Virus record (IMG/VR): IMGVR_UViG_3300042484_000849
Coordinates: 25,593-89,592 of that record
Origin: a virus
Reading direction: 5' to 3' (one strand)
Length of the DNA stretch: 64,000 bases
Positions 1-63,812 of the stretch are shown piece after piece. A model generated the notes under the pieces. That model did no database searches. It had not been told where the DNA came from and was given only the letters and a program-made list of their open reading frames with translations. How positions within the stretch are numbered: position 1 is the stretch's first letter; each line of letters starts with the position of its first letter. Made by a program: the position numbers and the translations under genes.

Positions 1-421
1 CATTTGGTTCACCATTACTCAATGCGTATTTGTGCTTATGTTGTGTAAAGATAGCGTTTTGTGTAGCATTTGGATTGTGTTCATCTAACCAATCTTTTTT
101 AGCTCCTACACTGGCTTCAGCATACGGTCCACGCAATGGAGCACTCAATACAGTGTATGGAATATTGTGTTGATTTAACCATTGTACAACTCTGCCGCCA
201 CCCTCTAGAGGTTGTAGTTCTCTAAAAAACTTATATACTTCTAAGGGGCTACTTGAGGCTAATTCATTGATTGATGTTTCAGTATCAGGAATCTCTTTAT
301 AATTACCAACATTATGTTTTGCGGCCCAAGCTCCAAAGAAATCAGCTTGTACCCCATCCATATCCAAATATAGATGTGGCATTTTTTTGTTTGTATCTTC
401 CATTAATTCCTTAATTTTCAT
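1..421 (-). CDS. HAD-family 5'-nucleotidase-like protein with capsid-targeting-like N terminus (partial)
   Basis: The reading frame starts at 421 and runs off the left edge, so the C terminus is missing. The HAD nucleophile motif is visible as LDMDGV (D20 and D22), with a likely motif II near TVLSAP, as in 5'(3')-deoxyribonucleotidases, which remove phosphate from deoxynucleoside monophosphates. Such an enzyme would act in nucleotide salvage. The first residues, MKIKELMED, do not belong to the HAD fold. They match the T4 capsid-targeting pattern (E5-L6, then an L-x-E site after residue 8) seen on six other proteins in this window. I infer it may be packaged into the virion. HAD assignment is solid; the substrate is a guess. 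Confidence 0.75.
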   Translation of the reverse strand, partial: MKIKELMEDTNKKMPHLYLDMDGVQADFFGAWAAKHNVGNYKEIPDTETSINELASSSPLEVYKFFRELQPLEGGGRVVQWLNQHNIPYTVLSAPLRGPYAEASVGAKKDWLDEHNPNATQNAIFTQHKHKYALSNGEPN

Positions 422-13360: not shown

Positions 13361-14434
13361 ATGAGATATACTGAATTTACAAGAACTTTGGTTGAAGCTG
13401 TTGACCAAATTAAAACTGTTACCAAGCACGATGTGGAACAGACATTGCGTAAAGCTGGGTATGAAGATTTCAAAGTTAACGGTAATAAAATCAACGTTTT
13501 GGTTCAGATTCCCTCTGGGCAACAAGAAAACGAGTTCCGTGTGTCTATGTTAGAAGAAATATTAACAATACTAAAGAAAGTATACGGAAATCAAGTATCA
13601 TTCAGTAATGATCCGGGACTGAGTAGTTTGGGTGGGGTTGTGTTTGATGATGGTCCGGTATCAGTTGTTGTTAAAGATATTGGTAAACAAGGTAACAACA
13701 GTGCAGGTGTTGGTAACGAATTAGAAATGGCTGGTTTAATAGCATCTGTGATTCAAAAATATACGACGGCAAACATTACATTTGTTGATCCACGTGGTAA
13801 GAAAATGACTATTAAAAATTGTACAAACGTTGACGTTAAGGGTCGTGACACCGCAGATAGAAAAAAAGCTGACGTTGTGTTGTCTAGTGATAAAGGTAGT
13901 CTACCTATTAGTATTAAAAAACTTAATGCTGATATGTGGGAAAGTGCTGATACTATGATTGGTTCAAGGGCCCGTGTTATTCTTGACAAACTAGTTAAAG
14001 AAGGTTTAGTTAAATTAAAAAAGATTGGCGAAAGAAAAACCAGATCTGGGTCAGTTCCTGTATACGCTTTATCTAAAGAGATTGTTATGGAGCCAACTGA
14101 AGAAGAAGCACTAAGTGCTGTGTTCGGTAATGACTTAAACCCTAAGGGCGGAATTGTTGTTCAAACGTTTAAGCCAGAGCATTTTGTACAAGACGGTCCT
14201 ACAGTAACTATTGATTGCCACGCGGTTATTACTAATGCTTCAGAGATTCCAGAAAGTCATTTAATGGTTTGGTTACTGCGTAATGACAGCACACGCAATG
14301 GCGGAACATTGGGTGTTGCGGGCATTCGTCCATTAGGTGTAACATTATCACGTGGTATCGGTAAGAAGGGTACAAAAGACGTTATCTTGGTAGATCAGTA
14401 CGGTAACGTAGTAGATAATCCAAATATCAAGTAA
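13361..14434 (+). CDS. PD-(D/E)XK nuclease-like protein with capsid-targeting-like N terminus
   Basis: This 357-residue protein begins MRYTEFTRTLVEAVDQ, fitting the capsid-tag pattern (E5-F6) with an L-V-E site at residues 10-12. The middle contains E120/E122, then D171 and S-I-K186 (ADVVL ... PISIKK). That order fits the PD-(D/E)XK nuclease fold with a Ser in place of the last Glu, as in some restriction enzymes. The C-terminal half carries a winged-helix-like stretch (RVILDKLVKEGLVKLKKIG). If packaged and injected, it could act on host or competing DNA, or counter host defence. The fold call is moderate; delivery is inference. Confidence 0.62.
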   Translation: MRYTEFTRTLVEAVDQIKTVTKHDVEQTLRKAGYEDFKVNGNKINVLVQIPSGQQENEFRVSMLEEILTILKKVYGNQVSFSNDPGLSSLGGVVFDDGPVSVVVKDIGKQGNNSAGVGNELEMAGLIASVIQKYTTANITFVDPRGKKMTIKNCTNVDVKGRDTADRKKADVVLSSDKGSLPISIKKLNADMWESADTMIGSRARVILDKLVKEGLVKLKKIGERKTRSGSVPVYALSKEIVMEPTEEEALSAVFGNDLNPKGGIVVQTFKPEHFVQDGPTVTIDCHAVITNASEIPESHLMVWLLRNDSTRNGGTLGVAGIRPLGVTLSRGIGKKGTKDVILVDQYGNVVDNPNIK

Positions 14435-16376: not shown

Positions 16377-16393
16377 AGATTTAATTTAGTTGT

Positions 16394-16415
16394 GAGTGCG
16401 AGTTTCCCCGCACTC
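16394..16415 (-). other. Inverted repeat in clpS leader
   Basis: GAGTGCG, 8-base loop, CGCACTC, starting one base after the late-type box. The plus strand reads the same stem followed by TTATTTAT, so weak termination is an alternative. Confidence 0.55.
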
Positions 16416-16416
16416 T

Positions 16417-16424
16417 TATTTATA
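16417..16424 (-). promoter_or_regulatory. T4-late-like promoter box for clpS
   Basis: Perfect TATAAATA on the minus strand, 41 bases before the clpS start. Confidence 0.6.
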
Positions 16425-16438
16425 GAAGTTTTATTATA

Positions 16439-16888: not shown

Positions 16889-16894
16889 GTTTTT

Positions 16895-16908
16895 CTCCTA
16901 ATAAGCAA
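16895..16908 (-). promoter_or_regulatory. ROSE-like RNA element covering the hsp20 ribosome binding site
   Basis: The minus strand reads UUGCU, UAUU, AGGAG, then 6 bases and AUG. UUGCU can pair with AGGAG with a G-G mismatch in the centre, the hallmark of the ROSE thermometer hairpin. A GC-rich hairpin (GCCG-CATT-CGGC) lies upstream in the same leader. The stem is short, so stability needs testing. Confidence 0.4.
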
Positions 16909-16958
16909 GTTTATGACGATATCGGGCCCGCCGAATGCGGCACCCAATGTTGTTTAGA

Positions 16959-18854: not shown

Positions 18855-18860
18855 AGTTTT

Positions 18861-18876
18861 CTCCTTTGTAAAGCAA
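18861..18876 (-). promoter_or_regulatory. ROSE-like element at the dnaK ribosome binding site
   Basis: UUGCU, six bases, AGGAG, then 6 bases and AUG on the minus strand. The same UUGCU/AGGAG pairing as in the hsp20 leader is possible. An alternative CUUU/AAAG stem would also cover the site. Confidence 0.35.
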
Positions 18877-18885
18877 GATTTTTTC

Positions 18886-18912
18886 TCTATAGACCCGTTA
18901 GGCATCTACAGA
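18886..18912 (-). other. 5' leader hairpin of dnaK
   Basis: TCTGTAGA and TCTATAGA pair over 8 bases (one G-U) around an 11-base loop. It lies just downstream of the AATAAATA box at 18917-18924. Confidence 0.5.
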
Positions 18913-18916
18913 AAAG

Positions 18917-18924
18917 TATTTATT
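18917..18924 (-). promoter_or_regulatory. Late-like promoter box upstream of dnaK
   Basis: AATAAATA on the minus strand, 62 bases before the dnaK start. It overlaps a TATAAT that lacks a -35. Weaker than the consensus boxes. Confidence 0.35.
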
Positions 18925-18962
18925 ATAATAGATTGTGTAAAAAAATATATTATTTAGGGAAA

Positions 18963-19181
18963 TTAGTACAACTTTTTAGGCAATTGCTGGTCACGCAAAT
19001 ATTTGTCCCAACGTCTTTTAGCTTGACTTTTAGCTAGTTTACGTTTAACAGTAGGTTTCACAAATTCTTGTCGGTCACGGGTTTCTTGTAAAGTACCATA
19101 ATCTGTAATCATTTTCTTGAACTTACGTAAGGCCTTTTCTGTATTTCCGTCATTAACTAAAACTTTTCGTCCTCTAATCAT
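18963..19181 (-). CDS. rpsU: Ribosomal protein bS21
   Basis: This 72-residue basic protein matches bacterial S21: an N-terminal V-x-x-x-E/N start, [15 protein letters not shown], the EF-KPTVKRK core, and a Lys/Arg-rich tail ending KKLY. bS21 sits by the anti-Shine-Dalgarno region of the 30S subunit and helps initiation. Phage S21 proteins are known in aquatic phages and proposed to bias initiation towards phage mRNAs. It overlaps the ClpX gene by 4 bases, so the two are co-translated. Confidence 0.93.
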
Positions 19182-20383
19182 ATTGCGGCTTTTGGCTGTA
19201 AAATTTGCTCCTGATTAATATTTATCTTTTTAATGTTATTTTCACGGTACTTCTTAGTGTTATACATATGAGGCATCAAAACCTTTTCAATCTCTGTATG
19301 TAAACCACGGGCACCGGTCTTTAATTTCATTGTATTTTCGGCTAGTTGTGAGATGGCATCTTCTGTAAAATCTAATTCAATGTCATCTAAACTTAATAGA
19401 TATTTATATTGGTCAATATAGTTGTTTTTAACTTTGGTTAGAACCTGAATCATTTCATCTTTAGTCAAATTATCTACATTAACTGTAGTAGTGAAACGTC
19501 CAATGAATTCAGGAATCATTCCAAATCGTGTTAAATCATCTGGACTAACCATAGATAAATCACCATCTTTACGTGAGTCCTTAATATCAGCACCAAATCC
19601 AATACTAGTTCCATTTATCCTATTGTTAACAATATCCTTTAATCCAACAAAAGCTCCGCCCGCAATGAACAGAATGTCTTTTGTATTAACTTCAATCATA
19701 TCACCGCTAGGATGTTTACGTCCACCACCTGCTGGAATACGACATACAGTACCTTCAACCATCTTCAATAATGCTTGCTGGACGCCTTCACCTGATACGT
19801 CACGGGTAATACTAGCACCCTCACTCTTACGGGCAATCTTGTCAATCTCATCAACAAACACTATACCACGTTCTGCTAACTTAGGATCTCCCCCGGCAGC
19901 GTTGACTAGCATACTAATCATTGATTCAACATCATCACCTACATATCCGGCTTCTGTTAAACTTGTAGCATCAGCAACAATGAAGGGCACTTTGAGATAT
20001 TTTGCTACTGTTTTAGCAAGCAAGGTTTTACCTGAACCAGTTGGTCCGATCAATAATACATTGCCCTTATGTATCTCTAAATCTTTAGGAGGATTGTTAA
20101 TACGTTTATAGTGATTAGCGATAGCTACACTAAGAACCATTTTAGCATTAATTTGACCAATAATATGTTGGTCTAAGAAATCTTTAATAGTTTCTGGATC
20201 ATATCTAAGATGGTCTTTTTCAATGACCTCATCTGAAGTATTATTTTCATCTACCATTAATTGAGTACATAACTCAATACAGTCGCTACAAATAGCAACA
20301 TCTTCTCCGACGATTAATTTATTAACGGTATCTTTATGATTACCGCAGAATGAGCAATGACTTAATTTTGTTTCTGTTGACAT
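19178..20383 (-). CDS. clpX: ClpX unfoldase
   Basis: This 401-residue protein has every key ClpX part. These are the N-terminal zinc domain (C10, C13, C32, C35), Walker A GPTGSGKT (113-120), pore loop GYVG (146-149), Walker B with D178-E179, the ClpP-docking loop IGF (261-263), and the sensor-2 GAR. It unfolds tagged proteins and threads them into ClpP. The docking loop implies it can still work with a ClpP, from phage (12679-13275) or host. The C terminus is slightly shorter and diverged. It is translationally coupled to bS21. Confidence 0.95.
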
Positions 20384-22100: not shown

Positions 22101-23636
22101 TTATTTTTGATTCTTTAGGAACAATTCTATCTGTTCTTTTTCAGTTTCGGACAACAAATCCAAATCATATTCGCCCTTTTCTATCTTTTCAACCAAATAT
22201 TTGATATATTTTTGGTTGTGCAGATAGGTATCTGATTGGTCCTTTTGTATCTCAATCCATTTGCGACCATCATACTTGTAAACATGGTTTGGTAATGAAT
22301 CTACCCTTACAAATACGTCTCCTTTATTGGCAACATCTGGAAATTTTATTCCAAAATTTGTACTAATAGTCCGTTGACTGTCAGCCGTTACCATAAATAC
22401 GTCTGGGCGTAAACTCTTTAATGCATCCATTTGGTAATGCTTATCCTCAAACATTACATATCCACCTTCTAATTCCTTATAAGGTTTTGATGGTTCAAGT
22501 AATACTTCTGTATCTATTTCTTCAATTGGTTCTTCTTTTGGAGCGACCATTGGCTTAGTATCAAAATGAACAAACGGTTTACTTAAGTAAGGATGTTGTT
22601 CTAGTATTGATTCTTCTTCAAAAGGTCCATCTCTAACATCACATAATTTGTTTGGACAGAATAGACCGATGCCAGTAGCGTTTACCAATTCAGTACCGCA
22701 CATGTAGCAGTTAATAGGATGTTTGGGGGTTCCCGCCATTGCAATAATCTGTTTAATCTGTTCATCAGTTAACGGACCATCGTCTTGTTCATATTCAGGT
22801 TCAGTGACAGTGGGAGTCGATGGTGTTTCATTCCCTAGAGGGCTGTCACCCTCCTCATCTTCTTTTTCTTTATCCCATTCTTTACTTGCATTAGCCGCAA
22901 GTACAAGTGCAATAGCTAATGGATCAAATACAATGACCAATAAAATAATAACCCAACGTACCGCTGCCTCTAACATATTGTTATCAGCATTATCACCGTA
23001 TATCAATGCGGCAATGTATTTAATAGGTCCTACTTCAGCTTCAATCTTACGATTCTCTGCCGCAATAGGTGCTCGTTCTTCATTTAGTTTAGCAATTTCT
23101 TTTTGAGCATCACCTATTTCTTTTTGTAGTTTAGTACGCTCGCCTGCTTGTTGTCTACGAATTTGAACAGCACGTTCAGCACTTGTTTCACTATCACCAC
23201 GACTCAATCGTTGGTCAACTTGATTGTCCATTTGAGTTAATGCTTTACGGGCTAACTCAATGTTGTCTCGTTGTGTTTTAATCTTTTCATCATAGAGGGA
23301 TAGTTTGGCTTGACTATCACCGGTGGAGATACCTTGTTCCATATGTGCTTTACTTAAAAAGCCAAAGATACCCATAGAGGTAAGTAATGCCAATGCAACT
23401 ACTGCAGGTACTAGATAGAGCTTGAGCATAAAGCCACAACGATTCCAGTACTTGCGTAGCCAAACAATTGTGGTGATCTTTCCTACTTCAAGAATACCCC
23501 CCATAATGATAACGGGAATAACCGCACCTGCAAAGATAGCGGTTAAGCCGATGATACTATACCAGGCAGCTACTGAACTAAGTGATAGTGCTACTAATAG
23601 TGTGAGATTTGAGAATGATAAAAAATTAAGGCGCAT
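22101..23636 (-). CDS. Large membrane protein with coiled coil and zinc ribbon
   Basis: This 511-residue protein has three N-terminal membrane segments (about 8-28, 33-55, 72-95), then a long coiled coil (about 105-205) rich in Lys/Glu/Gln. A further membrane helix lies near 228-248, with an acidic linker after it. C-terminally there is a CYMCGT...FCPNKLC zinc-ribbon-like motif and a beta-rich domain. The topology resembles conserved T4-like phage membrane proteins, whose function is unknown. The coiled coil would be periplasmic if the N terminus is cytoplasmic. Confidence 0.7.
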   Translation of the reverse strand: MRLNFLSFSNLTLLVALSLSSVAAWYSIIGLTAIFAGAVIPVIIMGGILEVGKITTIVWLRKYWNRCGFMLKLYLVPAVVALALLTSMGIFGFLSKAHMEQGISTGDSQAKLSLYDEKIKTQRDNIELARKALTQMDNQVDQRLSRGDSETSAERAVQIRRQQAGERTKLQKEIGDAQKEIAKLNEERAPIAAENRKIEAEVGPIKYIAALIYGDNADNNMLEAAVRWVIILLVIVFDPLAIALVLAANASKEWDKEKEDEEGDSPLGNETPSTPTVTEPEYEQDDGPLTDEQIKQIIAMAGTPKHPINCYMCGTELVNATGIGLFCPNKLCDVRDGPFEEESILEQHPYLSKPFVHFDTKPMVAPKEEPIEEIDTEVLLEPSKPYKELEGGYVMFEDKHYQMDALKSLRPDVFMVTADSQRTISTNFGIKFPDVANKGDVFVRVDSLPNHVYKYDGRKWIEIQKDQSDTYLHNQKYIKYLVEKIEKGEYDLDLLSETEKEQIELFLKNQK

Positions 23637-23643
23637 CTAATAT

Positions 23644-23856
23644 TTAGTCTGGTGTTATATCAAATAAGTGACTATAATAACTAAGGAATTCAGCTACAGG
23701 TAAAACAAGTTTTTGAGGTATATTAGGGCCGCGAGTCACATGATATGTAACTAAATAGTCACCACGATCCTCGTCAGTCTTTTTTACTTGTATTACTTCA
23801 ATCTTGTTACCATCTTCAAATACATAAGACTTACCAATTAAATCAAATGGGTTCAT
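23644..23856 (-). CDS. Small hypothetical protein
   Basis: This 70-residue protein has a small beta-barrel-like pattern (YVFEDGNKIEVIQVKK...GDYLVTYHVTRGP) and an aromatic C terminus (FLSYYSHLF). It overlaps the acidic protein gene by 4 bases (ATGA). Function unknown. Confidence 0.6.
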   Translation of the reverse strand: MNPFDLIGKSYVFEDGNKIEVIQVKKTDEDRGDYLVTYHVTRGPNIPQKLVLPVAEFLSYYSHLFDITPD

Positions 23857-25094
23857 TTTGTATTATGATATACATCAAACTGCGCCCACTGACCTCGCCA
23901 GTTGTCATGCTCGCCATCCATACCTTCATCATCAAGTTCATCACCATCATATACTAATCGTGTGATAACACTTGTGCCTTGAATATCCCAATTAAATACT
24001 TTAAGTTTCTTAGGTTCAAACACACCCTCGATACTAGTTTGAATACAAGAGCCTTTACCACCTTGAGTCCACATCAACCAGTAACCCTTACCTAGATGTT
24101 CTGGATATAGTTCTTCTAATTCTTCAGAGCAATCATAACGACTATCTTCTTCACCGTGTGCGTCACTAAAGAACGATTCTATGTCACCATCATAGATTGT
24201 CTCGCCTTCACTATTCTCAATAGTCATGTGAGTATCGTCTTGGTCAAAGCCCCAGAACGAATGTTTACCTTGATACTCATAGTAAGGCAAATCAAATTGT
24301 GCCGCCTTAGGAGTCTTGTTCTCATCGTAGTCATAGTTCTCATTAAGTGCATCGCTCAAATCATCTTCGTGTTCTTCACTACTCCAATGTTCGTATTGTT
24401 GTTTCTTAATCTTATGTACGCCGATCTCACGTGTACGACCCCAAACACGAATGGTGTATGTATCTTCGGGATAACTTTCCTGTAGTGAACCATCATCTTC
24501 TGTAGTCAATGTTTTAAACTCTGCTTTGAGTTCTTCCAATGCTTCTTCTAGTTCAGCTTCATCAACTAGTTCTTCATCTTCTTCCTCAGTTTCCTTAGCC
24601 CATCGTGCTGTACGTTCAGCACTTTCTTTTTCTGCTATGACACCGGCTTCTGTTAACTCAGTGTCACTTTCACAGTACGGGCAAACTTTTCTAGGATCAT
24701 CAATTTCAGTTCCGTCTTTAGCTACCCAAGACCATTCAGCATCATAACTCTGACCAGTCCACTTACAATTAGTACATTTGTGAGTATGTGGTGCTGGCTC
24801 AGGTTCACTATGCCAACTATCTTCATCACCTAGTTCATAGGTAACATCATAACCACCTTTACGATCAGTCCAACAATCATCGTATTGAAATTCCCATTCA
24901 ATCTCTACGTCATTCTCATAGGCATCATTAATAACATCTTCGTAATCAACCTCGCCGTCTACGATTTGCTTTAATTTTTCAGCAATCTCATCCTCATCTA
25001 AGTCAGGATAAATTTCACTTAATAGTGCTTCATCAATCTCAATAGCATATTGTCTATCATGTTGATGCCATTCGTGTTTAACTATTGTTACCAT
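23853..25094 (-). CDS. Highly acidic protein with zinc-ribbon motif
   Basis: About 30% of the first 115 residues of this 413-residue protein are Asp or Glu, and the middle is also strongly acidic (TEEEDEELVDEAELEEALEELKAEF). A zinc ribbon is likely from CTNCKW...CPYCES. Tandem tyrosine- and tryptophan-rich sheets follow. Such acidity is seen in DNA-mimic and anti-restriction proteins as well as in halophilic-type surfaces, but no known mimic is recognised. It has a good ribosome site (AGGAG) and lies next to the ligase gene. Confidence 0.65.
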   Translation of the reverse strand: MVTIVKHEWHQHDRQYAIEIDEALLSEIYPDLDEDEIAEKLKQIVDGEVDYEDVINDAYENDVEIEWEFQYDDCWTDRKGGYDVTYELGDEDSWHSEPEPAPHTHKCTNCKWTGQSYDAEWSWVAKDGTEIDDPRKVCPYCESDTELTEAGVIAEKESAERTARWAKETEEEDEELVDEAELEEALEELKAEFKTLTTEDDGSLQESYPEDTYTIRVWGRTREIGVHKIKKQQYEHWSSEEHEDDLSDALNENYDYDENKTPKAAQFDLPYYEYQGKHSFWGFDQDDTHMTIENSEGETIYDGDIESFFSDAHGEEDSRYDCSEELEELYPEHLGKGYWLMWTQGGKGSCIQTSIEGVFEPKKLKVFNWDIQGTSVITRLVYDGDELDDEGMDGEHDNWRGQWAQFDVYHNTK

Positions 25095-25118: not shown

Positions 25119-26453
25119 TCACTTGTCGTCACGGAAACGAACAAATCTGGGGAAACGCAAACTATATGTTCCATCTTGATTCTGTGTAATCACATCACAT
25201 AAGACTTCAGCAGTGCGACCAATGACCAAATTACGGTTAGTCCAATAGTCATCTCTATCAGCATCACTAAAGCCACTACCCACATTGACTGTAATTTCTT
25301 TCCCGTCGTCAACTCCATGACAAACCAGTGCTCCAAGTCTTCCCAAGTTTCTACCAGTACCTTCTTCAACACCTACGACCTCCAAGTCTACAGTTAATGT
25401 TGGCTTCCATTTCATCCAGTCAGTACTACGCTTACAGATATACGGAGCCTCTAATTCTTTAATCATAATGCCTTCAAATCCTGCATTAACTTGATCCTTA
25501 GCATAACGTTCAAGTTGATCCTTACCTGCGGCTGTATCTAAGTCAACCATAATATGTGGTAATAGTTCAACATTAGGCATAGTGTCAACTACATGCCGAA
25601 TATGTTCAAGTATATTAATACGTTTACGTAGTTGAGCATTCCAATGACCTTCACGGAAATCACTTAAAGGAATAATATCAAAGATATTAAACACACTGTC
25701 ATCCGCTTGTACATCAGTCTTGCGGCGTGCTTGTCGCATTAGTTCCTGGAATGTATTACCAATCACTTCACCATCTAACACAAATCCATTAATCAATGCG
25801 TTCTGATGTCCTCTAGCAATCTTAACAAAGTTGTTGCTAATCTGTTCTTCAATATGACCAAAGTTATCAAATACTTTACCATTACGACTGAAACAAATAG
25901 TAGTTACTCCCTCACTTGCACTAGGTATAACCATCAACAATACACGTACACCATCCAACTTAGGCTCTAAACGTTTAGTGCCTTTCATCTCAGGACGACC
26001 TTCACTATTAGTTGCTAGTTGACAACCAAAGATAGGGATTTCATATTCTGTTTTCTTACAGATTTTGTTAATTGTTTTGTCACTAATACCTGCACGTAAA
26101 TCTCTACGAATAACAGGAGCACAGAATGTATTCCATTCTATACTATCAAAACGTTCACTGATTTCATTGATAGCATCTAGTGCGGCATTACCTGACAAAT
26201 CACGTTGTGATAACATAGTAAGTAATGTATTAAACTCACTCCAAGGATTTTCAGCATCAATGATGCCTGCTGTATCAGGAACTTTTCTTACACCAAACGT
26301 CACGTAGGGATTATAACAAGCTTTAGTCAAACCCAGAAAAATCTGAGCATTAGTGCTACCTAGGACACTTGCCTCAAGCGCCTGTAAAATGATATCTTCT
26401 TTATGAAGGCGGCTATCTGATTCGTTTAATTTATTAATCCAACTTGCACTCAT
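25119..26453 (-). CDS. ATP-dependent DNA ligase (T4 gp30-like)
   Basis: I choose the ATG at 26453, which overlaps the upstream stop (ATGA) and has GGAG upstream, giving 444 residues. The adenylation lysine is K165 in EPKLDGVR. Further nucleotidyltransferase motifs are visible: VLDGEVIG, GFEGIMIKE and DWMKWKP, then a C-terminal OB-like end. The enzyme seals nicks during replication and repair. The N-terminal helical DNA-binding part (about 1-130) fits T4 gp30. It sits in a minus-strand run of small genes. Confidence 0.92.
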   Translation of the reverse strand: MSASWINKLNESDSRLHKEDIILQALEASVLGSTNAQIFLGLTKACYNPYVTFGVRKVPDTAGIIDAENPWSEFNTLLTMLSQRDLSGNAALDAINEISERFDSIEWNTFCAPVIRRDLRAGISDKTINKICKKTEYEIPIFGCQLATNSEGRPEMKGTKRLEPKLDGVRVLLMVIPSASEGVTTICFSRNGKVFDNFGHIEEQISNNFVKIARGHQNALINGFVLDGEVIGNTFQELMRQARRKTDVQADDSVFNIFDIIPLSDFREGHWNAQLRKRINILEHIRHVVDTMPNVELLPHIMVDLDTAAGKDQLERYAKDQVNAGFEGIMIKELEAPYICKRSTDWMKWKPTLTVDLEVVGVEEGTGRNLGRLGALVCHGVDDGKEITVNVGSGFSDADRDDYWTNRNLVIGRTAEVLCDVITQNQDGTYSLRFPRFVRFRDDK

Positions 26454-39942: not shown

Positions 39943-39950
39943 GATAAATA
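39943..39950 (+). promoter_or_regulatory. Late-like box for the four-gene capsid-tagged operon
   Basis: GATAAATA, 56 bases before the start at 40006, followed by a short hairpin (39960-39976). A minus-strand sigma70 promoter overlaps this region. Confidence 0.45.
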
Positions 39951-40005: not shown

Positions 40006-40683
40006 ATGAGATTTAACGAAATTATATCAGAGAGTTCAGGAACCAGACTGAAAGACATAGCAAAAATTGCTACTAATATGCAGGATGCTGACTTTTGGTT
40101 AATACGTAAGGGTAGCGATAAGACAGTAGGTAAGCCTGTTAAAGAGTTTGATCCTTCAAGGATTGGCATTAAAGTTGTAAAAACTGATGTTCTTGATCCA
40201 AACTATCTTTATTATGCAATGATGAATTTACATAACCAGGGACATTTTGCTCGTCTAGCAAATGGAACAACTAATTTAGTTAATATTACTGTAAATGACA
40301 TTGCTAATATTCCACTAGGTCAACAAGATGTGGCAGAGGGTGAGAATTGGGCAAAACATAATAACAAACGTGTAGGTGGCATGAGTAAAAAATCTGTAAA
40401 GAGTTATCGCCGTAGCCATCCTGGTAGTAAAATTCAAACAGCAGTAACTACTAAACCTAGTAAACTTAAAAAGGGCAGTAAAGCCGCTAAACGCCGTAAA
40501 TCATTCTGTGCTAGAATGAAGGGTATGAAGAAAAGCAGAACAAGTGCTAAGACAGCGAGAGATCCAAATAGTAACATTAACAAGAGTTTGCGTAGATGGA
40601 ATTGTGAATCTATTGAGCAGATGGAAGAATTAGTAATGCTTGCCGAACAAATGGTAGCAAAGGCTAGAAAAGAAATACTATGA
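40006..40683 (+). CDS. Capsid-targeted basic DNA-binding-like protein (TRD-like plus DUF6321-like)
   Basis: This 225-residue protein begins MRFNEIISESSGTRL, matching the capsid-tag pattern with an I-S-E site after residue 9. Residues about 25-110 resemble a half target-recognition domain of restriction HsdS (GKPVKEFDPSRIGIKVV ... ANGTTNLVNITVNDIANIPL). The C-terminal third is very basic with KRRKSFCARMKGMKKSRTSAKTARDPNSNINKSLRRWNC, a DUF6321-like phage segment. It probably binds DNA or RNA. As first gene of the operon it is likely late-expressed and packaged; delivery is inferred. Confidence 0.68.
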   Translation: MRFNEIISESSGTRLKDIAKIATNMQDADFWLIRKGSDKTVGKPVKEFDPSRIGIKVVKTDVLDPNYLYYAMMNLHNQGHFARLANGTTNLVNITVNDIANIPLGQQDVAEGENWAKHNNKRVGGMSKKSVKSYRRSHPGSKIQTAVTTKPSKLKKGSKAAKRRKSFCARMKGMKKSRTSAKTARDPNSNINKSLRRWNCESIEQMEELVMLAEQMVAKARKEIL

Positions 40684-42440
40684 ACTTTACAGAATTATTT
40701 GAGGGTGCAACACCCAAATTACCGGGTGCTGTAGGTGGCATTAAAGTTATGAGCATGGATCAATTCCTTGCTCAATCGGGTGATGAACCGGAAGAAAAAA
40801 TAGATGAAATGTCTTCCGAAGAATTAGATAACATGTCCCCTGAAGAATTAGTTCGTTTTACTAATAATGCTAGAAATAATAAACTTAAAAATGTAGATCC
40901 TAATGCAATTGATCAGGCTTATGGTAAAAGTATTTCTATAATGTTTCCTGATAGTGATAAGCGTGATAAACAATCTACAAATCATAAACAGCAAAATGTA
41001 AACGAAGGCATTATAGGTGATGTATATAATAAATTAAAATCAATGGTGCTAAAAGTGTTGGGTAAGAAAATGGTCAAAAATCCAACTGACCAAATTTCCT
41101 TTCAGCGTATGATGAGTAGAGTTACTGGCCCACTTGATACCACTCAATATTCAAAATTATGGCAAGACTATAAAAATGACAAACACTACTATGTTAGGTT
41201 ACCTACGCTTCAGGATATGAACAACAGCGAACATATGTATTTGTGGTCTAATAGTCTATCACAATACGTAATGGATAAATTTCCAAACGCTTCAACTGAA
41301 GCATTACTACAAGCTGTAGAAGGATTAACGCAGTTAGCAGTGAAAGACTTTAAACAAAGTTATCGTGATTTAGATGAAGCAACCAAACTGCCAGCACAAA
41401 CACGTGAACTAAAAGGTCAAGAACTAGACGATTACTTAGATAGAATTCGTAATCGTGAAAAGGGTAAAACAGACAAATATAAACTACCCTACATCCATCG
41501 CTCAAGTGTAGTCAAATACTACAATGAAGAAGGTAAACGCTACGATACAGATCAAATCAAAACAGCATTAGGTGTCCGTCCAAAGAAACTTCTTAAACAA
41601 AATGAGAAGATGAAACATAGCAATGGTGAACTAGAACAATTCTATAACATTGGTTTTGCCGCACTAGTTGGTATAGCATTAGATGAAGGTACAAATGAAC
41701 TAATAGTAGTTAATACATGTCCGGGTGCTGGTTCATGTAAAGTAGATTGTTTTGCTATGAAGGGCGGTAAGGTTCAATTTGAAGGTCCTTGGTTAAGTGA
41801 TGGAAGAATACTTACTTTCTTATTAAATGATCCAGATGGTTTCTTTAATCAACTAAGTGCAGAAATTACTAAAGAAGAAAAATCAGCACAAAAAGGTGGC
41901 TACAATTTAACTATTCGCTGGCATGATGCTGGTGATTTCTTTAGCCCAGAATATATGGACCTAGCATTTAAGTTGGCATCTAATCATCCTGATGTTAAAT
42001 TCTATGCTTATACAAAGATAGCTGATGCGGCATTAGGTCAAAAGCCAAGTAACTTTATTGTTAATTGGAGTGAAGGTGCAAGTACTAGCCAAGAAAAACA
42101 AGTTAAACAACAAGACCCGCAATTAGATGTAACTAAGAATAGTCGCATCGTTCCTAGTAAGTTATTCTATGACTTATTGAAGAAGGATAAAGATGGTAAG
42201 TTAGATAAGACTGCTGATGGTGCTTGGCAACCACGTGATGCTGCCGCACTAGAAGAATTAAAAGATAGATTAGCACAACAATATAATCTAAAACGTGATA
42301 CTATCATTGATTACAATGAGATGATGGCTACTCCGCAGAAGAATAACATTAAGAAATGGAATGTTATTATTGCTCCGGGTGAAGGAGATATCAGTGCTAA
42401 TAGACAAGATGTATTGTCAACCTTATTATTGAAACACTAA
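40680..42440 (+). CDS. Capsid-targeted GP88-like protein
   Basis: This 586-residue protein begins MNFTELFEGATPKL with an L-F-E site after residue 8. After an acidic helical spacer, the C-terminal half carries C347-x5-C353-x3-C357 (NTCPGAGSCKVDCFAMKGG) and then RWHDAGDFFSPEYMDLAFKLA and FYAYTK. This is the phage Gp88/DUF7227-like family, which resembles radical-SAM-type barrels with a metal-cluster motif. Its reaction is unknown. The start overlaps the previous stop (ATGA). Placing a cofactor enzyme behind a capsid tag is unusual. Confidence 0.72.
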   Translation: MNFTELFEGATPKLPGAVGGIKVMSMDQFLAQSGDEPEEKIDEMSSEELDNMSPEELVRFTNNARNNKLKNVDPNAIDQAYGKSISIMFPDSDKRDKQSTNHKQQNVNEGIIGDVYNKLKSMVLKVLGKKMVKNPTDQISFQRMMSRVTGPLDTTQYSKLWQDYKNDKHYYVRLPTLQDMNNSEHMYLWSNSLSQYVMDKFPNASTEALLQAVEGLTQLAVKDFKQSYRDLDEATKLPAQTRELKGQELDDYLDRIRNREKGKTDKYKLPYIHRSSVVKYYNEEGKRYDTDQIKTALGVRPKKLLKQNEKMKHSNGELEQFYNIGFAALVGIALDEGTNELIVVNTCPGAGSCKVDCFAMKGGKVQFEGPWLSDGRILTFLLNDPDGFFNQLSAEITKEEKSAQKGGYNLTIRWHDAGDFFSPEYMDLAFKLASNHPDVKFYAYTKIADAALGQKPSNFIVNWSEGASTSQEKQVKQQDPQLDVTKNSRIVPSKLFYDLLKKDKDGKLDKTADGAWQPRDAAALEELKDRLAQQYNLKRDTIIDYNEMMATPQKNNIKKWNVIIAPGEGDISANRQDVLSTLLLKH

Positions 42441-42958
42441 TGAGAGCAAGTGAATTTATAACTGAAGCACATCATAGTATAATGAAAACTATGACTATAG
42501 GATCATGGCGTGTACTTATTGACTCACACGCAGTAGTAAGTATGACTGCTAGAAATGTATCACCTATAACTTTTAGTAATATTATAACTTATGCTTCTAT
42601 TTATCCTGACGTAGCAGCCACAATACCAATTGGTAAGGGTGCCTATGTTCAAGATACTAATACTCTGGTTAGTGTGTACATTCATAGATTAAGTCAAAAT
42701 GAAATAAGGGTGGAAACAGTATTAGGTCCTGACATGAAACCCAAACCTCCGCTGTTTCGCAGACCAGTACCAAATACTAATAATGTAAAAATTGATCCAA
42801 AATTTTTAAATGGTCAAAATAAATTAGCTCAAGATATTCAAAAATACGGACGTGACGATATTAGTAAAAGAATATCAGCGGTTGCTCCTATATTAAATTT
42901 AAATAGAGCAGATTACCGTAAGTTTCAACGGTTGATGAAAAGAAAAAACAAAAAATGA
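42440..42958 (+). CDS. Capsid-targeted hypothetical protein, possibly nuclease-like
   Basis: This 172-residue protein begins MRASEFITEAHHSI, with an I-T-E site after residue 9, nearly identical to T4 internal protein tags. The core (WRVLIDSHAVVSMTARNVSPITFSNII...RVETVLGPD) has the strand-helix order of small RelE/barnase-like toxins, but I cannot confirm catalytic residues. The C terminus is basic and helical (FQRLMKRKNKK). The start shares the A of the previous stop (TAATG). A small injected toxin-like protein is one hypothesis. Confidence 0.6.
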   Translation: MRASEFITEAHHSIMKTMTIGSWRVLIDSHAVVSMTARNVSPITFSNIITYASIYPDVAATIPIGKGAYVQDTNTLVSVYIHRLSQNEIRVETVLGPDMKPKPPLFRRPVPNTNNVKIDPKFLNGQNKLAQDIQKYGRDDISKRISAVAPILNLNRADYRKFQRLMKRKNKK

Positions 42959-43644
42959 GAGCAAGTGAATTTATTGATGAGGATATTAGTCGTAGGGACC
43001 TGCTTAAAGGTGTAGCAGGCGCTGCCGCATTAGGTGCTACTGGATTAGCTAAAGCAGGTCAATATCAACCCTATGATGAACTTATAAAAGATAAAGAAGC
43101 TTTGGTGAACGTATGGGGTCCTAGACTAGAACAATTACAACAACGTGCTAATACTATGCTTAACAGATTAGCAAGAACAGCGGGCCCTGCTTGGGCAAAA
43201 CAATTAGCAGGAACACAACTTGTTGTGCAGTCAAATGAAAGCTATGTGCAAGCCAACGCAGGCAATAAAACTATAAGTATGGATATTACTGTGTTCTGGG
43301 ACGCACCTGATGAGATACTAGCATTTGCTATAGCACACGAATTGGGACATATTGCTCTAGGACACATTGATGATGTTACTCCGGCGCAATCTCGTAAAGA
43401 AGAAATAGATGCTGATGATTTTGCTGTTAAATTGTGCAAGGCCTTAGGGTACAATAAGTCCGGACTATTTAAGTTTATGCATAGTAAAAAAGAAATGTAT
43501 GCCTACTACAATCTTATAGCAAGTCAACCCAATAGCACACATCCTAATTATGACCAAAGGATAAAACGTGCTAAGAAACAAGGTTTTCAATTGTCAAAAG
43601 GTGGTGTTCAACAGTTGAATACTCTAATGACACATTTAGCATAA
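42955..43644 (+). CDS. Capsid-targeted M48-like zinc protease with Tat-like signal
   Basis: This 229-residue protein begins MRASEFIDED, with an I-D-E site after residue 9. Directly behind it is SRRDLLKG (R13-R14) followed by a hydrophobic stretch and AKA (cleavage expected near residue 34), a classic Tat signal. The enzyme part has H128-E129-x-x-H132 (AHELGH) and E150 (EEIDADDFA), as in M48 metalloproteases. Hypothesis: the tag is cut in the prohead, the protein enters the cell with DNA, and the exposed Tat signal sends it to the periplasm. Not tested. Confidence 0.82.
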   Translation: MRASEFIDEDISRRDLLKGVAGAAALGATGLAKAGQYQPYDELIKDKEALVNVWGPRLEQLQQRANTMLNRLARTAGPAWAKQLAGTQLVVQSNESYVQANAGNKTISMDITVFWDAPDEILAFAIAHELGHIALGHIDDVTPAQSRKEEIDADDFAVKLCKALGYNKSGLFKFMHSKKEMYAYYNLIASQPNSTHPNYDQRIKRAKKQGFQLSKGGVQQLNTLMTHLA

Positions 43645-46762: not shown

Positions 46763-47611
46763 TTATGTTCCCCATTCATTCTTAAACAATGGTACTTGTA
46801 ATCTATCACTATAACGATAACCACGATTCATTGCTTCAATAGCAACATTCTTGGCATTCAAACTATAGATACTTTCTACACCACCACATGGCATAAAGTA
46901 TACAGGGCCTCTAAATCCACCATTACGAAACTCTTTTACTGCTTTATCTGCTTCAAGTGCATCTTCCTTAGTAGCAATAACAAACTTCAAATACACAAAG
47001 CCAACACTTTCATATTGACGAATAACACTAGGACAAATTGCTTCACTCCACTTCTCACCGCTGATACTTAGTTTAGGACTAACACTAAATGTAAGTGCGT
47101 TCTTTTCTCTATTAGTCTTCCATTGTTGTAGATATGTTGAAAGGTCTTGACTTAGTTCTTGTGTACCATTAGTTTCAAAAGTAATCTCTTTTAATGCTCT
47201 CATTTTCTCATTTGAAAGTAAGTTAGGATATGCTCTTTGCCAGCCGAGTAGAGGTTCTCCACCAGTGATAACAAGGTGCTCATCCATCCAGCGATTATGA
47301 GGAAGCATGTCCATAATGCTGTCAACAATACTATCGGTACTAAGCATAGGACTAAGATGCTTAAACCTAGGATCCCAACTAGCATAACTATCACAACCTG
47401 TACTAACCAACGGTAATTTTTTATAATCATCATAATAGTGAACCCTTGCGGCAATGTCTTCTACTTCTTTACTTACTTCACCTTTAGGCATGCCGAAGCC
47501 TGCGCATGTAAAGTTACAACCAAACGTTCTTAGGAACACGGAGGGAACTCCCATGTAACGACCCTCACCCTGAATACTATAGAATAGTTCTGAAATTTTT
47601 ATGTTACTCAT
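46763..47611 (-). CDS. queE: 7-carboxy-7-deazaguanine synthase QueE
   Basis: This 282-residue radical-SAM enzyme has the QueE opening ISELFYSIQGEGRYMG and VITGGEPLLGWQ. The cluster cysteines are C32 and C36, with the third displaced to C73 (TGCDSYASWD), a spacing of about C-x3-C-x36-C instead of the compact motif. It converts 6-carboxy-tetrahydropterin to 7-carboxy-7-deazaguanine. QueD, FolE and DpdA lie nearby on the same strand, so the pathway for 7-deazaguanine in DNA is largely present. Confidence 0.88.
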   Translation of the reverse strand: MSNIKISELFYSIQGEGRYMGVPSVFLRTFGCNFTCAGFGMPKGEVSKEVEDIAARVHYYDDYKKLPLVSTGCDSYASWDPRFKHLSPMLSTDSIVDSIMDMLPHNRWMDEHLVITGGEPLLGWQRAYPNLLSNEKMRALKEITFETNGTQELSQDLSTYLQQWKTNREKNALTFSVSPKLSISGEKWSEAICPSVIRQYESVGFVYLKFVIATKEDALEADKAVKEFRNGGFRGPVYFMPCGGVESIYSLNAKNVAIEAMNRGYRYSDRLQVPLFKNEWGT

Positions 47612-47614
47612 ATT

Positions 47615-47806
47615 TTACCAATTATGTATTGTGTTTGCTATAATGAAACAACATGTTATCACATGTAGCACCACCCAGAAAGTTTTTAGGAACAATGCGA
47701 TTTTTGCTTCTCTTAATGTAAGAATGGGAACATCAGGCCTGTCATCATCAGTGTTACCCATTAGATGACCGGTTGCCCTTGCCCAGATTTTTTCTAAACT
47801 ATTCAT
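47615..47806 (-). CDS. Small membrane protein
   Basis: This 63-residue protein resembles a small family in T4-like cyanophages (MNSLEKIWARATGHLMGNTDDDRPDVPILTLREAKIAL) with a C-terminal membrane helix. It overlaps the class II aldolase gene by 8 bases. It lies within the deazaguanine/sugar operon but its role is unknown. Confidence 0.65.
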   Translation of the reverse strand: MNSLEKIWARATGHLMGNTDDDRPDVPILTLREAKIALFLKTFWVVLHVITCCFIIANTIHNW

Positions 47807-48452
47807 ATTTCCCTGATGCTAATACGATTTGACAAATATGTTCTAATCGTTCAATGTGTTCAAAAGCCCTCCATGGGCTTGTGTCAATGGCTACAACGCC
47901 GTGTCCTTTGATGCCTACAATGTCATAAGCAATATTACCTGCATTATCTAATCCAAGATTTTTATGACATTGATCGGCAAGTTCTTGGCTGATAGGTTCT
48001 ACATCTCCTACATTAGGTGCTACCTTAGTATAACGATTCAATTCTGGAAACGCTTTGCTGATAGTGCTTAAATCAATACCGGCGTGCATAGCGGCAATAC
48101 AATAAGTAGGGTGTAAGTGAACTACTACCCTAACATCATTGCTATGTTGCCCCATTTCTCGTTGTAAGCCAAAGTGTAGTGGTATTTCTCCACTAGGTTT
48201 TAACTTCTCACTAATGTCTGTATATACCAATTCTTTCCAAGAATAGTATGGTCTAGGAGGTTGGTCATAGTAGCCTTGTTCAATGACAATCTTTTTAAAC
48301 TGGTCCGGTTGCATTGTCTGCTTACGTACACCACTAGGTGTAATGTAAAAGTGGTCCCGGTCGTGATGACGAATACTTACATTGCCATCACGACTGGTAA
48401 TCCAATTGCGTTTATATGCTTCTACTAATGTGTCGCAAATTGTTTCTAACAT
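47799..48452 (-). CDS. Class II aldolase/adducin-family protein
   Basis: This 217-residue protein has the sugar-phosphate aldolase pattern: SRDGNVSIR, the metal-binding HLHPTYCIAAMHAG, and GHGVVAIDTSPWRAFEHIERLEH. Family members are fuculose-phosphate aldolase, ribulose-phosphate epimerase and MtnB-like dehydratase. Which reaction applies is open. It sits between the QueE and QueD genes, overlapping the QueD gene, so co-expression with the deazaguanine genes is likely. Confidence 0.8.
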   Translation of the reverse strand: MLETICDTLVEAYKRNWITSRDGNVSIRHHDRDHFYITPSGVRKQTMQPDQFKKIVIEQGYYDQPPRPYYSWKELVYTDISEKLKPSGEIPLHFGLQREMGQHSNDVRVVVHLHPTYCIAAMHAGIDLSTISKAFPELNRYTKVAPNVGDVEPISQELADQCHKNLGLDNAGNIAYDIVGIKGHGVVAIDTSPWRAFEHIERLEHICQIVLASGKYE

Positions 48453-48934
48453 TATGCAAATTCTCCATCTTCCCTATGACCACCACGTCCTGCCATATTA
48501 CTATCAGTCTCACGTACCTCTACTCTACAGCACCATACACGTTTAGCTTCTTCACTACCGCAATTGGGCAAAAAGATTGTATTAACGTATTCGTATAAGA
48601 AGTCAGCAATACCTTCACAACCTGTGCGTTCTACTTCTGTTATCTTTGCTAGTTTCAATCTGCCTAGTTCTAATAGATGTTCACGCATTGGGTCATCTTG
48701 TGCGACTAATAGAGTATGGTCAAACCATTCTTCTAGTTTATCCTTAAGTGGTCGTAGTCCACCAAAATCAGTTACCCAGTTACGGGCATCAAGTGTGTCA
48801 GCCTCAAACTCAAAGTGAAAACTCATAGCATAGCCATGAATTAAGTTACAATGACTGTCAGCACGCCATTGACGATATGCGACAGGACCTATTTGTCTGT
48901 ATGTCTTTGTTGAAAAGAATTTTTTGTTTGCCAT
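48452..48934 (-). CDS. queD: QueD / 6-carboxytetrahydropterin synthase
   Basis: This 160-residue protein has the T-fold features ADSHCNLIHGYAMSFHFEF (H28, C29, H33), DFGGLRPLKDKLEEWFDHTLL and VRETDSNMA. It makes 6-carboxy-tetrahydropterin from dihydroneopterin triphosphate, the product of FolE. The usual HGH zinc pair is HGY (Y35), so metal binding may differ; a nearby H40 could substitute. It overlaps the aldolase gene by one base. A promoter with consensus -10 lies near 48953-48981. Confidence 0.82.
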   Translation of the reverse strand: MANKKFFSTKTYRQIGPVAYRQWRADSHCNLIHGYAMSFHFEFEADTLDARNWVTDFGGLRPLKDKLEEWFDHTLLVAQDDPMREHLLELGRLKLAKITEVERTGCEGIADFLYEYVNTIFLPNCGSEEAKRVWCCRVEVRETDSNMAGRGGHREDGEFA

Positions 48935-48952
48935 GATGTTCTCCTATGTTAT

Positions 48953-48981
48953 ATTATAGCATAGGACGCAGAGTTTGTATA
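48953..48981 (-). promoter_or_regulatory. Possible promoter of the QueD operon
   Basis: TATAAT with a weak -35 (TATACA) at 17 bases. Confidence 0.4.
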
Positions 48982-49011
48982 CCGGGATGAGCCCAAAGAG
49001 ACCGGTTATAG

Positions 49012-49482
49012 TTATTTACTATTTTTTAATTGTTCTGCTTCGGCAACCCGTTTTCGCAAACTACTAGAACTGAAACTATGGTCACGCTTATTAAATATAA
49101 CCATTACACCACGTCCGGCGCCCTCATTACGTCCGGTGAAGTTCTTATCCTCATACTCTGTACCCAAAATACGTACATCTAATGGTAAAATCAATAACAA
49201 GTCAATCAAGTCTTGTTCAGTTTGATAAACAACAACTTCATCTACATATCGACAAGCCGCAAGTTGAATTTGTCTTTCTACAATACTTTGAATAGGTTTA
49301 TTCTTAGTATCAGGTCTATCAATAGTTGGATCAGTTTGTAACCCACAAATCAAGTAATCACAATGGTTCCTTGCTTCACTTAACATAGCAACGTGACCTG
49401 CGTGTAGCATATCAAATGTACTGAAGGTAATGCCAATCTTTTTACCTTGTAATTTTAGTTCTTTAATGTGATTAAAAATCAT
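49012..49482 (-). CDS. Cytidylyltransferase-like nucleotidyltransferase
   Basis: I use the ATG at 49482 (overlapping the upstream stop), giving 156 residues. It shows FSTFDMLHAGHVAML (HxGH-type motif), DLLLILPLDVRILGTEYEDKNFTGR and HSFSSSSLRKRV, typical of CTP:glycerol-3-phosphate or sugar-1-phosphate cytidylyltransferases. It activates a sugar or alcohol phosphate, which fits the surrounding glycosylation genes. It overlaps its upstream neighbour by 4 bases. Confidence 0.82.
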   Translation of the reverse strand: MIFNHIKELKLQGKKIGITFSTFDMLHAGHVAMLSEARNHCDYLICGLQTDPTIDRPDTKNKPIQSIVERQIQLAACRYVDEVVVYQTEQDLIDLLLILPLDVRILGTEYEDKNFTGRNEGAGRGVMVIFNKRDHSFSSSSLRKRVAEAEQLKNSK

Positions 49483-49715
49483 TTTGAAAGTGCTCTCCAC
49501 ATTTTAGTTTGTTCATGCTCTTTTAAGAATTCATCTTCACCGGCAAATGTAGGTGAGTCTGCCATAATCTCATCTAACAACCACTTGATACGATGTAAAT
49601 CTTTTTTAATTTCAAACTGATTGTAACCATCATTATAGTTACTATGTAGTTCCACACCACTCATGTAGATTTGATGATGTACTGAGTTGTAGTCCATTTG
49701 TTTACGCATTCCCAT
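49479..49715 (-). CDS. Small conserved phage protein
   Basis: I use the ATG at 49715, which shares bases with the FolE stop, giving 78 residues. It contains QIYMSGVELHSNYNDGYNQFEIKKDLHRIKWLLDEIMADSP and resembles a small family in aquatic T4-like phages. It looks helical. Role unknown. Confidence 0.62.
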   Translation of the reverse strand: MGMRKQMDYNSVHHQIYMSGVELHSNYNDGYNQFEIKKDLHRIKWLLDEIMADSPTFAGEDEFLKEHEQTKMWRALSK

Positions 49716-62858: not shown

Positions 62859-63812
62859 TTATTGAAAGATTTCTGGATGTGCTTTGCCAAATATCTTAAT
62901 ATACTTGCCAGCCATCACATCCGCTTCTGCTTCTATTGGACTACCGGGATAACTATCGCCCGGTTTAATCATATTTAATTCACCCTGACGCACATGTGTT
63001 AATTCATGGAAAACAGTGCGTAATATATCTACTAAATTTCTATTAGCACAATACACCCATACTTCACCCGTCTCTGGATTGTGTCTACCAGTATGATGAC
63101 CTTCTTGCGCTTCATCACTATCATAACTAAACTCTATCTTTGGAGTAGTTTCTAAATTTAACTTCTTACTTGTCCAAGCAAGAAACTTCTTTACAATAGG
63201 ATTGTTATTTAAATCTTCTTGTTCAGATTCAGTAATGTAGGGTTTTAATAACTCAGGATCATATCCATTATGTCTAGCGGAATCTCGCAATCGTCTTAAT
63301 CCTTTAGCTTCAATTTCTCTTATTCTATTTCTAGACAAGTCAAACTTATCACCAATCTGTTGTAATGTCATATCATACCAAAATCTTAAAATTAATACTT
63401 TTCGTTGGTCATCGGTTAATCTGTTTAAGCCATTTTGAATAATTTGTTTAATACTATCATCTATTTCAGGATCTTCACCAGCTGGATCTTTATATGGCAC
63501 TCGTTCTGCTCTGTTATAAATATCGTTAGGATCATTTAATGTTGGCATTTTATTATAGGATCCGCGATATGTTGTACCATCCGGGTTGTAATGTCGTCCT
63601 CCAACCTCATCTAGTTTATCTTTAATCCAACTGTCCGGAGTCTTATGATATTTTCTAACAAACAAATCATGCAATGCATCACCGGTTATACGATGTTTCT
63701 TTGCTATCTTTTTCATTAGTTTATCAATGGTATTATAGTCGTGCTTTTCTAAGCTAGGAAGTTTCTTAGCTAGGTCAGTTGCGGCTGATTCGTATAGTTC
63801 TATTGCTCTCAT
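62859..63812 (-). CDS. Capsid-targeted protein with sigma region 4 and zinc-protease domains
   Basis: I use the ATG at 63812, giving 317 residues; a GTG six codons earlier lies in the promoter box. The start MRAIELYESA has an L-Y-E site after residue 8. Residues about 122-185 form a sigma70 region 4 (LTDDQRKVLILRFWYDMTLQQIGDKFDLSRNRIREIEAKGLRRLR). Residues about 205-317 carry H269-E270-x-x-H273 and EAEAD (E294/E296), a zincin. An I-T-E site at 193-195 could let the prohead protease split the two parts. A late-like box abuts the start. Confidence 0.8.
   Translation of the reverse strand: MRAIELYESAATDLAKKLPSLEKHDYNTIDKLMKKIAKKHRITGDALHDLFVRKYHKTPDSWIKDKLDEVGGRHYNPDGTTYRGSYNKMPTLNDPNDIYNRAERVPYKDPAGEDPEIDDSIKQIIQNGLNRLTDDQRKVLILRFWYDMTLQQIGDKFDLSRNRIREIEAKGLRRLRDSARHNGYDPELLKPYITESEQEDLNNNPIVKKFLAWTSKKLNLETTPKIEFSYDSDEAQEGHHTGRHNPETGEVWVYCANRNLVDILRTVFHELTHVRQGELNMIKPGDSYPGSPIEAEADVMAGKYIKIFGKAHPEIFQ

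Follow-up and report, generated by a model that had tools for sequence, protein, structure and literature searches.

Why should proteins with unrelated bodies begin with nearly the same few residues? The question is raised by a 64,000-nucleotide stretch (the window; positions 25,593 to 89,592) of the 89,592-bp virus contig IMGVR_UViG_3300042484_000849, in which an initial annotation made from the letters alone recognized seven proteins with a common short N terminus, four of them encoded at 40006-43644, and proposed a modular set of packaged, probably injected proteins. The seven reading frames all exist, with the N termini described, and the four genes form an overlapping operon with overlaps of 1-4 bases (Table 1). 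These N termini are very probably T4-type capsid-targeting sequences, shortened to 8-9 residues, with a large, interchangeable and presumably injected cargo in jumbo phages. In this lineage of T4-like jumbo phages, the predicted targeting label has the consensus M-[RKN]-x-x-E-[FLI]-[ILVF]-x-E. The contig belongs to such a phage; Agrobacterium phage Atu_ph07 and Sinorhizobium phage Phosso have DNA polymerases with 47-48% identity to the one it encodes. The 352-kb relative IMGVR_UViG_3300046787_000200, analysed whole, served as the comparison genome; 104 of the 149 contig proteins are common to it, with a median identity of 75%.

Occurrence and conservation of the label

The motif of the initial annotation opens 6 of the 149 called contig proteins, where shuffling leads one to expect 0.05-0.18, and none of 538 internal methionines is followed by it; these six matches exclude the gene at 421 on the minus strand, for which the gene caller placed the start at a later methionine. 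In the 352-kb relative, a generalised motif, M[RK]xx[EDQ][FLIV][LIVFM]xE, is found at 9 of 442 starts (expected, 0.05-0.11) and at 0 of 2000 internal methionines. Since the excess at starts is seen both in the contig and in this independent genome, a chance origin of the label is excluded.

The label is also widespread. When IMG/VR was scanned with a degenerate DNA pattern for MRAxEFIxE, at least 120 in-frame matches were obtained, whereas two similarly sized patterns shifted out of frame by one base gave 24 and 19, and 91 of the 95 in-frame matches in the 80 loci examined open a reading frame of at least 60 amino acids (aa). With a looser pattern, a single jumbo contig has up to eight matches, and the reversed-pattern control is zero in 19 of 19 records. 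It had been suggested that related genomes be searched for the label ahead of variable domains, and such cases were found: over 2.64 Mb of DNA, including loci picked by the label pattern itself, 241 distinct labelled proteins fall into 47 unrelated body clusters; when these residues were sought behind four other codons instead, 12 cases in total were obtained. The phenomenon is larger than was first described and is present in dozens of relatives. Among cultured phages, Atu_ph07, one of the best DNA polymerase matches, has no match to the nine-residue pattern, and searches with the M48 protein of the window and with one member of the conserved labelled family termed cluster 0 gave no match.

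Alternatively, the shared start might serve no purpose as a peptide, being a recombination cassette or a DNA element active in regulation or translation. The labelled genes are clustered, and those at 42440 and 42955 are identical over their first 20 nucleotides, from which it follows that local copying occurs. However, 90 distinct 27-mers were found among 91 DNA versions of the label, with synonymous third codon positions varying freely, and the motif lies in frame from the start codon, its mis-framed version remaining at background. In the GP88 family (71 homologues), Glu5 is kept in 66, Leu6 in 70 and Glu8 in all 71, while adjoining residues change. In the Fe/Mn superoxide dismutase (SOD), 80 of 80 relatives likewise keep the key label residues, namely the glutamate and the isoleucine four positions ahead of it, and their neighbours vary. 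Because nearly all 27-mers differ and third positions are free, the label is conserved as protein and not as DNA, and a cassette or DNA element without peptide function is extremely unlikely.

Predicted processing

The label closes with (L/I)xE, the predicted cleavage sequence, and the same signature recurs away from the N terminus, as domain junctions mostly fall at [LIV]xE. In proteins in which a DUF6321 domain follows an N-terminal extension, [LIV]xE mostly ends four residues ahead of the first conserved Trp, both in labels (MRAEEFITE/SAAW, MKIQEVITE/GENW; the slash marks the predicted cut throughout) and inside larger proteins (FLQVSE/GAAW, QDVAE/GENW); untagged short DUF6321 proteins begin MAKTPAW. 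In the first protein of the operon, VAE/G precedes the DUF6321 domain. Of nine occurrences of the N-terminal domain seen in the protein encoded at 62859-63812, seven, including two internal ones, follow [ILVY]xE/[SGT].

A natural fusion of two labelled cargo genes, L386:4390-5913, consists of a label, a body resembling ADP-ribosyltransferases (ART-like), LAE/A, an internal twin-arginine (Tat) signal and an M48 peptidase. At its junction the MRAxEF part has been lost, and LAE/A has been kept directly before SRRDLLKG. This retention argues for a protease at work; a signal read by a receptor only would not predict it.

A candidate enzyme is encoded by the lineage. An S77 (gp21-type) prohead protease is present in 13 of 13 label-bearing contigs of at least 150 kb, whereas four of the five contigs met only through mis-framed patterns are without S77, and the fifth has S77 together with one looser-pattern match. 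The 352-kb relative contains a gp20-gp67-gp68-gp21-gp22-gp23-like head module, in which gp21 was identified with an E value of 9e-28 and the other genes (portal, gp67-/gp68-like, scaffold and capsid) were assigned by order and sequence features; its capsid protein contains LLAE/SSAG.

Virion proteomics and possible late expression

CsCl-purified virions of cyanophages hold NMNAT/cytidylyltransferase, an APH/ChoK-like kinase and a SAM hydrolase (PMC9602691, PMC10665884). Such virion enzymes bear MKxFxxFLxE labels, of which the text consulted makes no mention. Labels with T4 spacing begin the NMNAT of S-SCSM1 (MKSFLQFLKE), P-SSM2 (MKSFSQFLTE) and S-SRM01 (MKNFHQFITE). In S-CREM2, five proteins start with the strict T4-spaced motif, i.e., the SAM hydrolase, the kinase (annotated start GTG), the cytidylyltransferase, gp13 and gp136; all five are among the 52 virion proteins detected by mass spectrometry (MS) (PMC10665884, Table 3), and the motif is borne by 0 of the 112 undetected proteins scanned. 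When S-CREM2 and S-SCSM1 are pooled, the T4-spaced label is found in 6 of 100 detected versus 1 of 346 undetected proteins (p 6e-4). Furthermore, the DUF6321 family to which the first operon protein belongs is annotated as a virion protein in S-SCSM1, a phage with MS-identified virion proteins. As a separate observation, gp12 of S-CREM2 (L280:7704-10313), a Cas9-like nuclease reported in virions, carries RFASFMAE/A about 25 residues in, and this internal label suggests a downstream start or an internal cut.

The placement of promoter-like elements is consistent with late expression of the labelled genes. The late promoter of T4-like cyanophages is NATAAATA (PMC2984593), with ATAAATA as its core. 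This core lies upstream of five of five operon-first labelled genes versus 51 of 203 other operon-first genes in the two genomes (p 0.001). ATAAATA is present upstream of the gene at 13361, and a late-promoter-like element stands before the four-gene operon (Table 1). A search upstream of the labelled genes for the late promoter of T4 in its exact form, TATAAATA, gave no match.

The label might instead address another structure or compartment of the phage, such as an assembly site, an infection compartment or the tail, with the glutamate being no cleavage site. The location of the labelled proteins in this lineage is deduced from sequence, and the proteins encoded at 1-421 and 13361-14434, along with some homologues, have a degenerate [LI]xE, both of which would suit such a destination. 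However, the recurrence of [LIV]xE at internal junctions without the rest of the label calls for a protease rather than a receptor, MS-detected virion enzymes bear T4-spaced relatives of the label, and every large label-bearing contig encodes the S77 protease. We regard a destination other than the capsid as improbable.

Several observations weigh against capsid targeting and cleavage. ORF30 of S-SCSM1 (106 aa) has a T4-spaced label, yet it is undetected in virions. The authors of the S-CREM2 study (PMC10665884) left packaging versus carry-over by co-purification open. The MS support covers the 10-residue, T4-spaced form in other phages, not the 8-9-residue form. Many virion proteins are without a label, and the 13361-14434 protein and some homologues of the 1-421 protein have a weak label or none. 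A few DUF6321 junctions lie off [LIV]xE (ALDEDW, INEDW), and the two exceptions among the nine domains of the 62859-63812 type have Asp for Glu in one case and another spacing in the other; in T4, Asp at the cut permits targeting and blocks processing (PMC9026906). The initial annotation would have regarded its proposal as refuted if the rest of the genome encoded no gp21-type prohead protease. The contig, an 89.6-kb fragment to which this condition cannot be applied, yielded neither an S77 protease nor recognizable head genes; the 13 large label-bearing contigs all have the protease.

The shared packaging address originally argued for is nevertheless supported by the excess over chance, the independent genome, conservation at the protein level, swapping of bodies, [LIV]xE junctions, the S77 protease in relatives and the cyanophage proteomes. 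We strongly infer packaging in this phage from these comparisons and, from the type of cargo, we infer injection; cleavage in this phage and an action of the cargo on the host by acetylation, ADP-ribosylation, phosphorylation, proteolysis or envelope hydrolysis are predicted. According to the proposed mechanism, the label would bind the protein to the prohead scaffold core late in infection, the S77 protease would cut after the final glutamate, and the cut cargo would remain in the head with the DNA and enter the next host at injection.

Interchangeable cargo

Since the label would work with any body, cargo genes could be exchanged freely. The claim of a modular set is borne out, as bodies swap, the label is gained or lost, and it stands on the 47 body clusters. 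Homologues in the 352-kb relative are lacking for 7 of the 10 labelled contig proteins versus 38 of the 139 others (Fisher p 0.009). Among homologues of the nucleotidase-like protein at 1-421, the label has been gained and lost. The middle domain of the DUF6321 protein at 40006-40683 is absent from the 352-kb relative, in which the label is kept, and the sigma-70 region-4 domain encoded within 62859-63812 is an insertion relative to the homologue there, with the label and both ends kept. The 352-kb relative also has a labelled GH19 protein next to an untagged paralogue.

The segment 40006-43644 is a hotspot of this exchange. In 80 relatives, the GP88 gene often comes after a labelled DUF6321 gene and before differing labelled cargo, and the GP88 loci hold 59 distinct further labelled-cargo proteins in 17 clusters. 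The operon would represent one exchange site, with the DUF6321 and GP88 genes in front and variable cargo behind. The cargo types comprise GNAT acetyltransferases, ADP-ribosyltransferases (ADPrib_exo_Tox, E 9.5e-13; ART-PolyVal, E 4.7e-14), kinases (phrog_15752, Kinase-PolyVal), GH19 hydrolases, an amidoligase, an M48 peptidase, SOD and a nucleotidase. For the ART-like body with YxYHSV...ILRKGVI, no solved relative was found, and the reading of this family as ART is therefore based on motifs only; for other cargo, ART is supported by the ADPrib_exo_Tox and ART-PolyVal matches. The ADP-ribosyltransferase and kinase activities recall T4 Alt and the T7 kinase that acts on host transcription.

Cluster 0 (e.g., L090:2342-3108), with proteins of about 130 aa mostly encoded by two adjacent genes, is the most abundant labelled family and is common in jumbo contigs; it may be a core head component. 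Such a family leads to the alternative that labelled proteins are packaged but structural, i.e., core or DNA-condensing components of the head and not injected effectors. This would agree with the resemblance of the adjacent cluster 0 pair to a conserved head component, and with the basic character of DUF6321 domains, whose proteins are annotated as virion or structural in cyanophages. However, most body families are rare or single and are replaced between close relatives, and many bodies are enzymes (ADP-ribosyltransferases, kinases, GNATs, GH19, M48 and SOD). A generally structural role is unlikely, and injected cargo remains the favoured reading.

A possible two-stage address

In the M48 peptidase of the operon and its relatives, the start of a twin-arginine signal lies one to three residues past the predicted cut site. 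This arrangement is found on two unrelated bodies, M48 (the window protein, L385, L395, L396 and L401) and GH19 (L155 and L441). Six GP88-locus proteins and L155 have, near the N terminus, an SRRxFLK-like motif with a hydrophobic stretch behind it and an AxA-like end. In the L386 fusion, the internal Tat signal after LAE/A could be exposed only by cleavage. We tentatively propose, as a possibility short of an even chance, that the prohead protease uncovers the Tat signal in the capsid and that the folded enzyme, an M48 peptidase or a GH19 hydrolase, is exported to the periplasm by the Tat system of the host once it has been injected.

Relation to known systems

The capsid-targeting sequence (CTS) of T4 is carried by the internal proteins IPI-IPIII and Alt (Mullaney and Black 1996; reviews, PMC9026906 and PMC3012670), and the first 10 residues of IPIII have been shown experimentally to direct targeting (PMC9026906). 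As in T4, a short N-terminal label with a hydrophobic pair and then xE at the cut stands on unrelated, replaceable bodies, the lineage encodes a gp21-type protease, and the cargo includes an ADP-ribosyltransferase. However, the T4 label has 10-20 residues, with positions 4 and 7 serving targeting and 8 and 10 processing, whereas the jumbo-phage label has 8-9 residues (12 in the 13361-14434 protein) against the 10 of T4, with E5-F6, hydrophobics at 6-7, Glu at 8 or 9 and commonly MRA as its start; the cyanophage enzymes keep the T4 spacing. Because the residue spacing differs, the system is set apart as a variant of the T4 CTS. Additionally, it differs in its jumbo genomes, in a cargo that is much larger and richer in enzymes and includes long multidomain proteins with predicted internal cut sites, and in a Tat signal behind the cut in some cargo. 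The cyanophages (Kyanoviridae), with their 10-residue label, have few labelled proteins per genome, unlike the jumbo phages.

The hypervariable internal-protein loci of T-even phages encode injected anti-restriction proteins, of which the characterised T4 ones inhibit GmrSD (PMC12373910, PMC9391042). They are likewise hotspots where non-homologous proteins share only an N-terminal leader; in contrast, the proteins described here are mostly enzymes and lie beside a DUF6321-GP88 anchor pair. In the giant phages phiKZ and SPN3US, many packaged and injected proteins are likewise processed by a gp21-related prohead protease, and the propeptides of their inner-body and ejection proteins are mostly long, about 80-130 residues or more (PMC5694885, PMC10052503), whereas the labels here are common and short, at 8-12 residues.

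Polyvalent proteins belong to phages and conjugative elements. ART-PolyVal and Kinase-PolyVal domains stand behind the label here as well; unlike polyvalent proteins, most of the labelled ones consist of one or two domains behind a label predicted to be cleaved off.

The CTS literature, as far as its available text extends, covers coliphage internal proteins and Alt; the same logic is indicated here in jumbo phages and cyanophages for dozens of enzyme families. It offers a reason why virion proteomes of cyanophages repeatedly contain metabolic and regulatory enzymes, a finding for which the authors of those studies left the choice between packaging and contamination open. Being so short, the label allows injected effectors, otherwise hard to recognize, to be spotted from sequence alone in uncultured phages, and it predicts neo-N-termini after FLTE, FLEE and similar sequences in existing proteomic data sets.

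Labelled proteins of the contig and neighbouring genes

Three further candidates on the contig, outside the window, bring its total to ten (Table 1). Of the two zinc proteases originally counted, the product of the gene at 42955 is indeed an M48 peptidase, with a Tat signal, and that of the gene at 63812 is corrected to a protein with a HELTH zincin-like C terminus plus a sigma-70 region-4 insertion. If packaged, this sigma-like factor could act on the host RNA polymerase immediately on entry. A PADLOC run returned generic metallopeptidase matches only.

Table 1. Labelled proteins and associated features; positions are those of the window unless a contig or locus is given.
Feature	Position	Strand	Label and position	Description
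Nucleotidase-like protein	1..421 (contig 25456-26013; runs off left window edge)	-	MKIKELME/D, 398-421	5'-nucleotidase/HAD-like NT5C, E 7e-9
phrog_12709 protein	13361..14434	+	MRYTEFTRTLVE/A, 13361-13396	357 aa, no known function; label of 12 residues, irregular spacing, weakest of set
Late-promoter-like element	39943..39950	+		GATAAATA, upstream of four-gene operon
DUF6321 protein	40006..40683	+	MRFNEIISE/S, 40006-40032	Middle domain, C-terminal DUF6321 domain (E 3e-11)
GP88-family protein	40680..42440	+	MNFTELFE/G, 40680-40703	GP88 match, E 2e-27; anchor gene of cargo hotspot
172-aa protein	42440..42958	+	MRASEFITE/A, 42440-42466	No assigned function; homologue in one GP88 locus has MRANEFIAE/A
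M48-family peptidase	42955..43644	+	MRASEFIDE/D, 42955-42981	M48, E 2e-12; TAT_signal (Pfam, E 5e-5); twin-arginine signal SRRDLLK at once after label, 42988-43008
Sigma/zincin-like protein	62859..63812	-	MRAIELYE/S, 63789-63812	N-terminal domain LAKKLPSLEKHDYNTIDKLM, sigma-70 region 4 (residues 129-176), HELTH zincin-like C terminus; start is ATG six codons inside GTG-started frame
Fe/Mn superoxide dismutase	L002:11090-11644 (contig 23590-24144), outside window		MRDIIQLLE/D	
Further candidate	Same contig, outside window		MRAIHFLTE/A	
Further candidate	Same contig, outside window		MDNYKYFSQLCESIVSE/A	Weaker candidate
Label-then-Tat protein	L385:4731-5402			M48
Label-then-Tat protein	L155:2992-3609			GH19
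Label-then-Tat protein	L441:5580-6254			GH19

Judged by eye, DnaK-like (16959-18905, minus strand), ClpS-like (16068-16376, minus strand) and ClpX-like (19178-20383, minus strand) N termini are grouped at 16068-20383 of the window. Near the labelled operon, at 46763-49500, frames resembling queuosine/preQ0-type enzymes were likewise noted by eye (QueE-like at 46763 and QueD-like at 48452, both on the minus strand), which may point to modified phage DNA.

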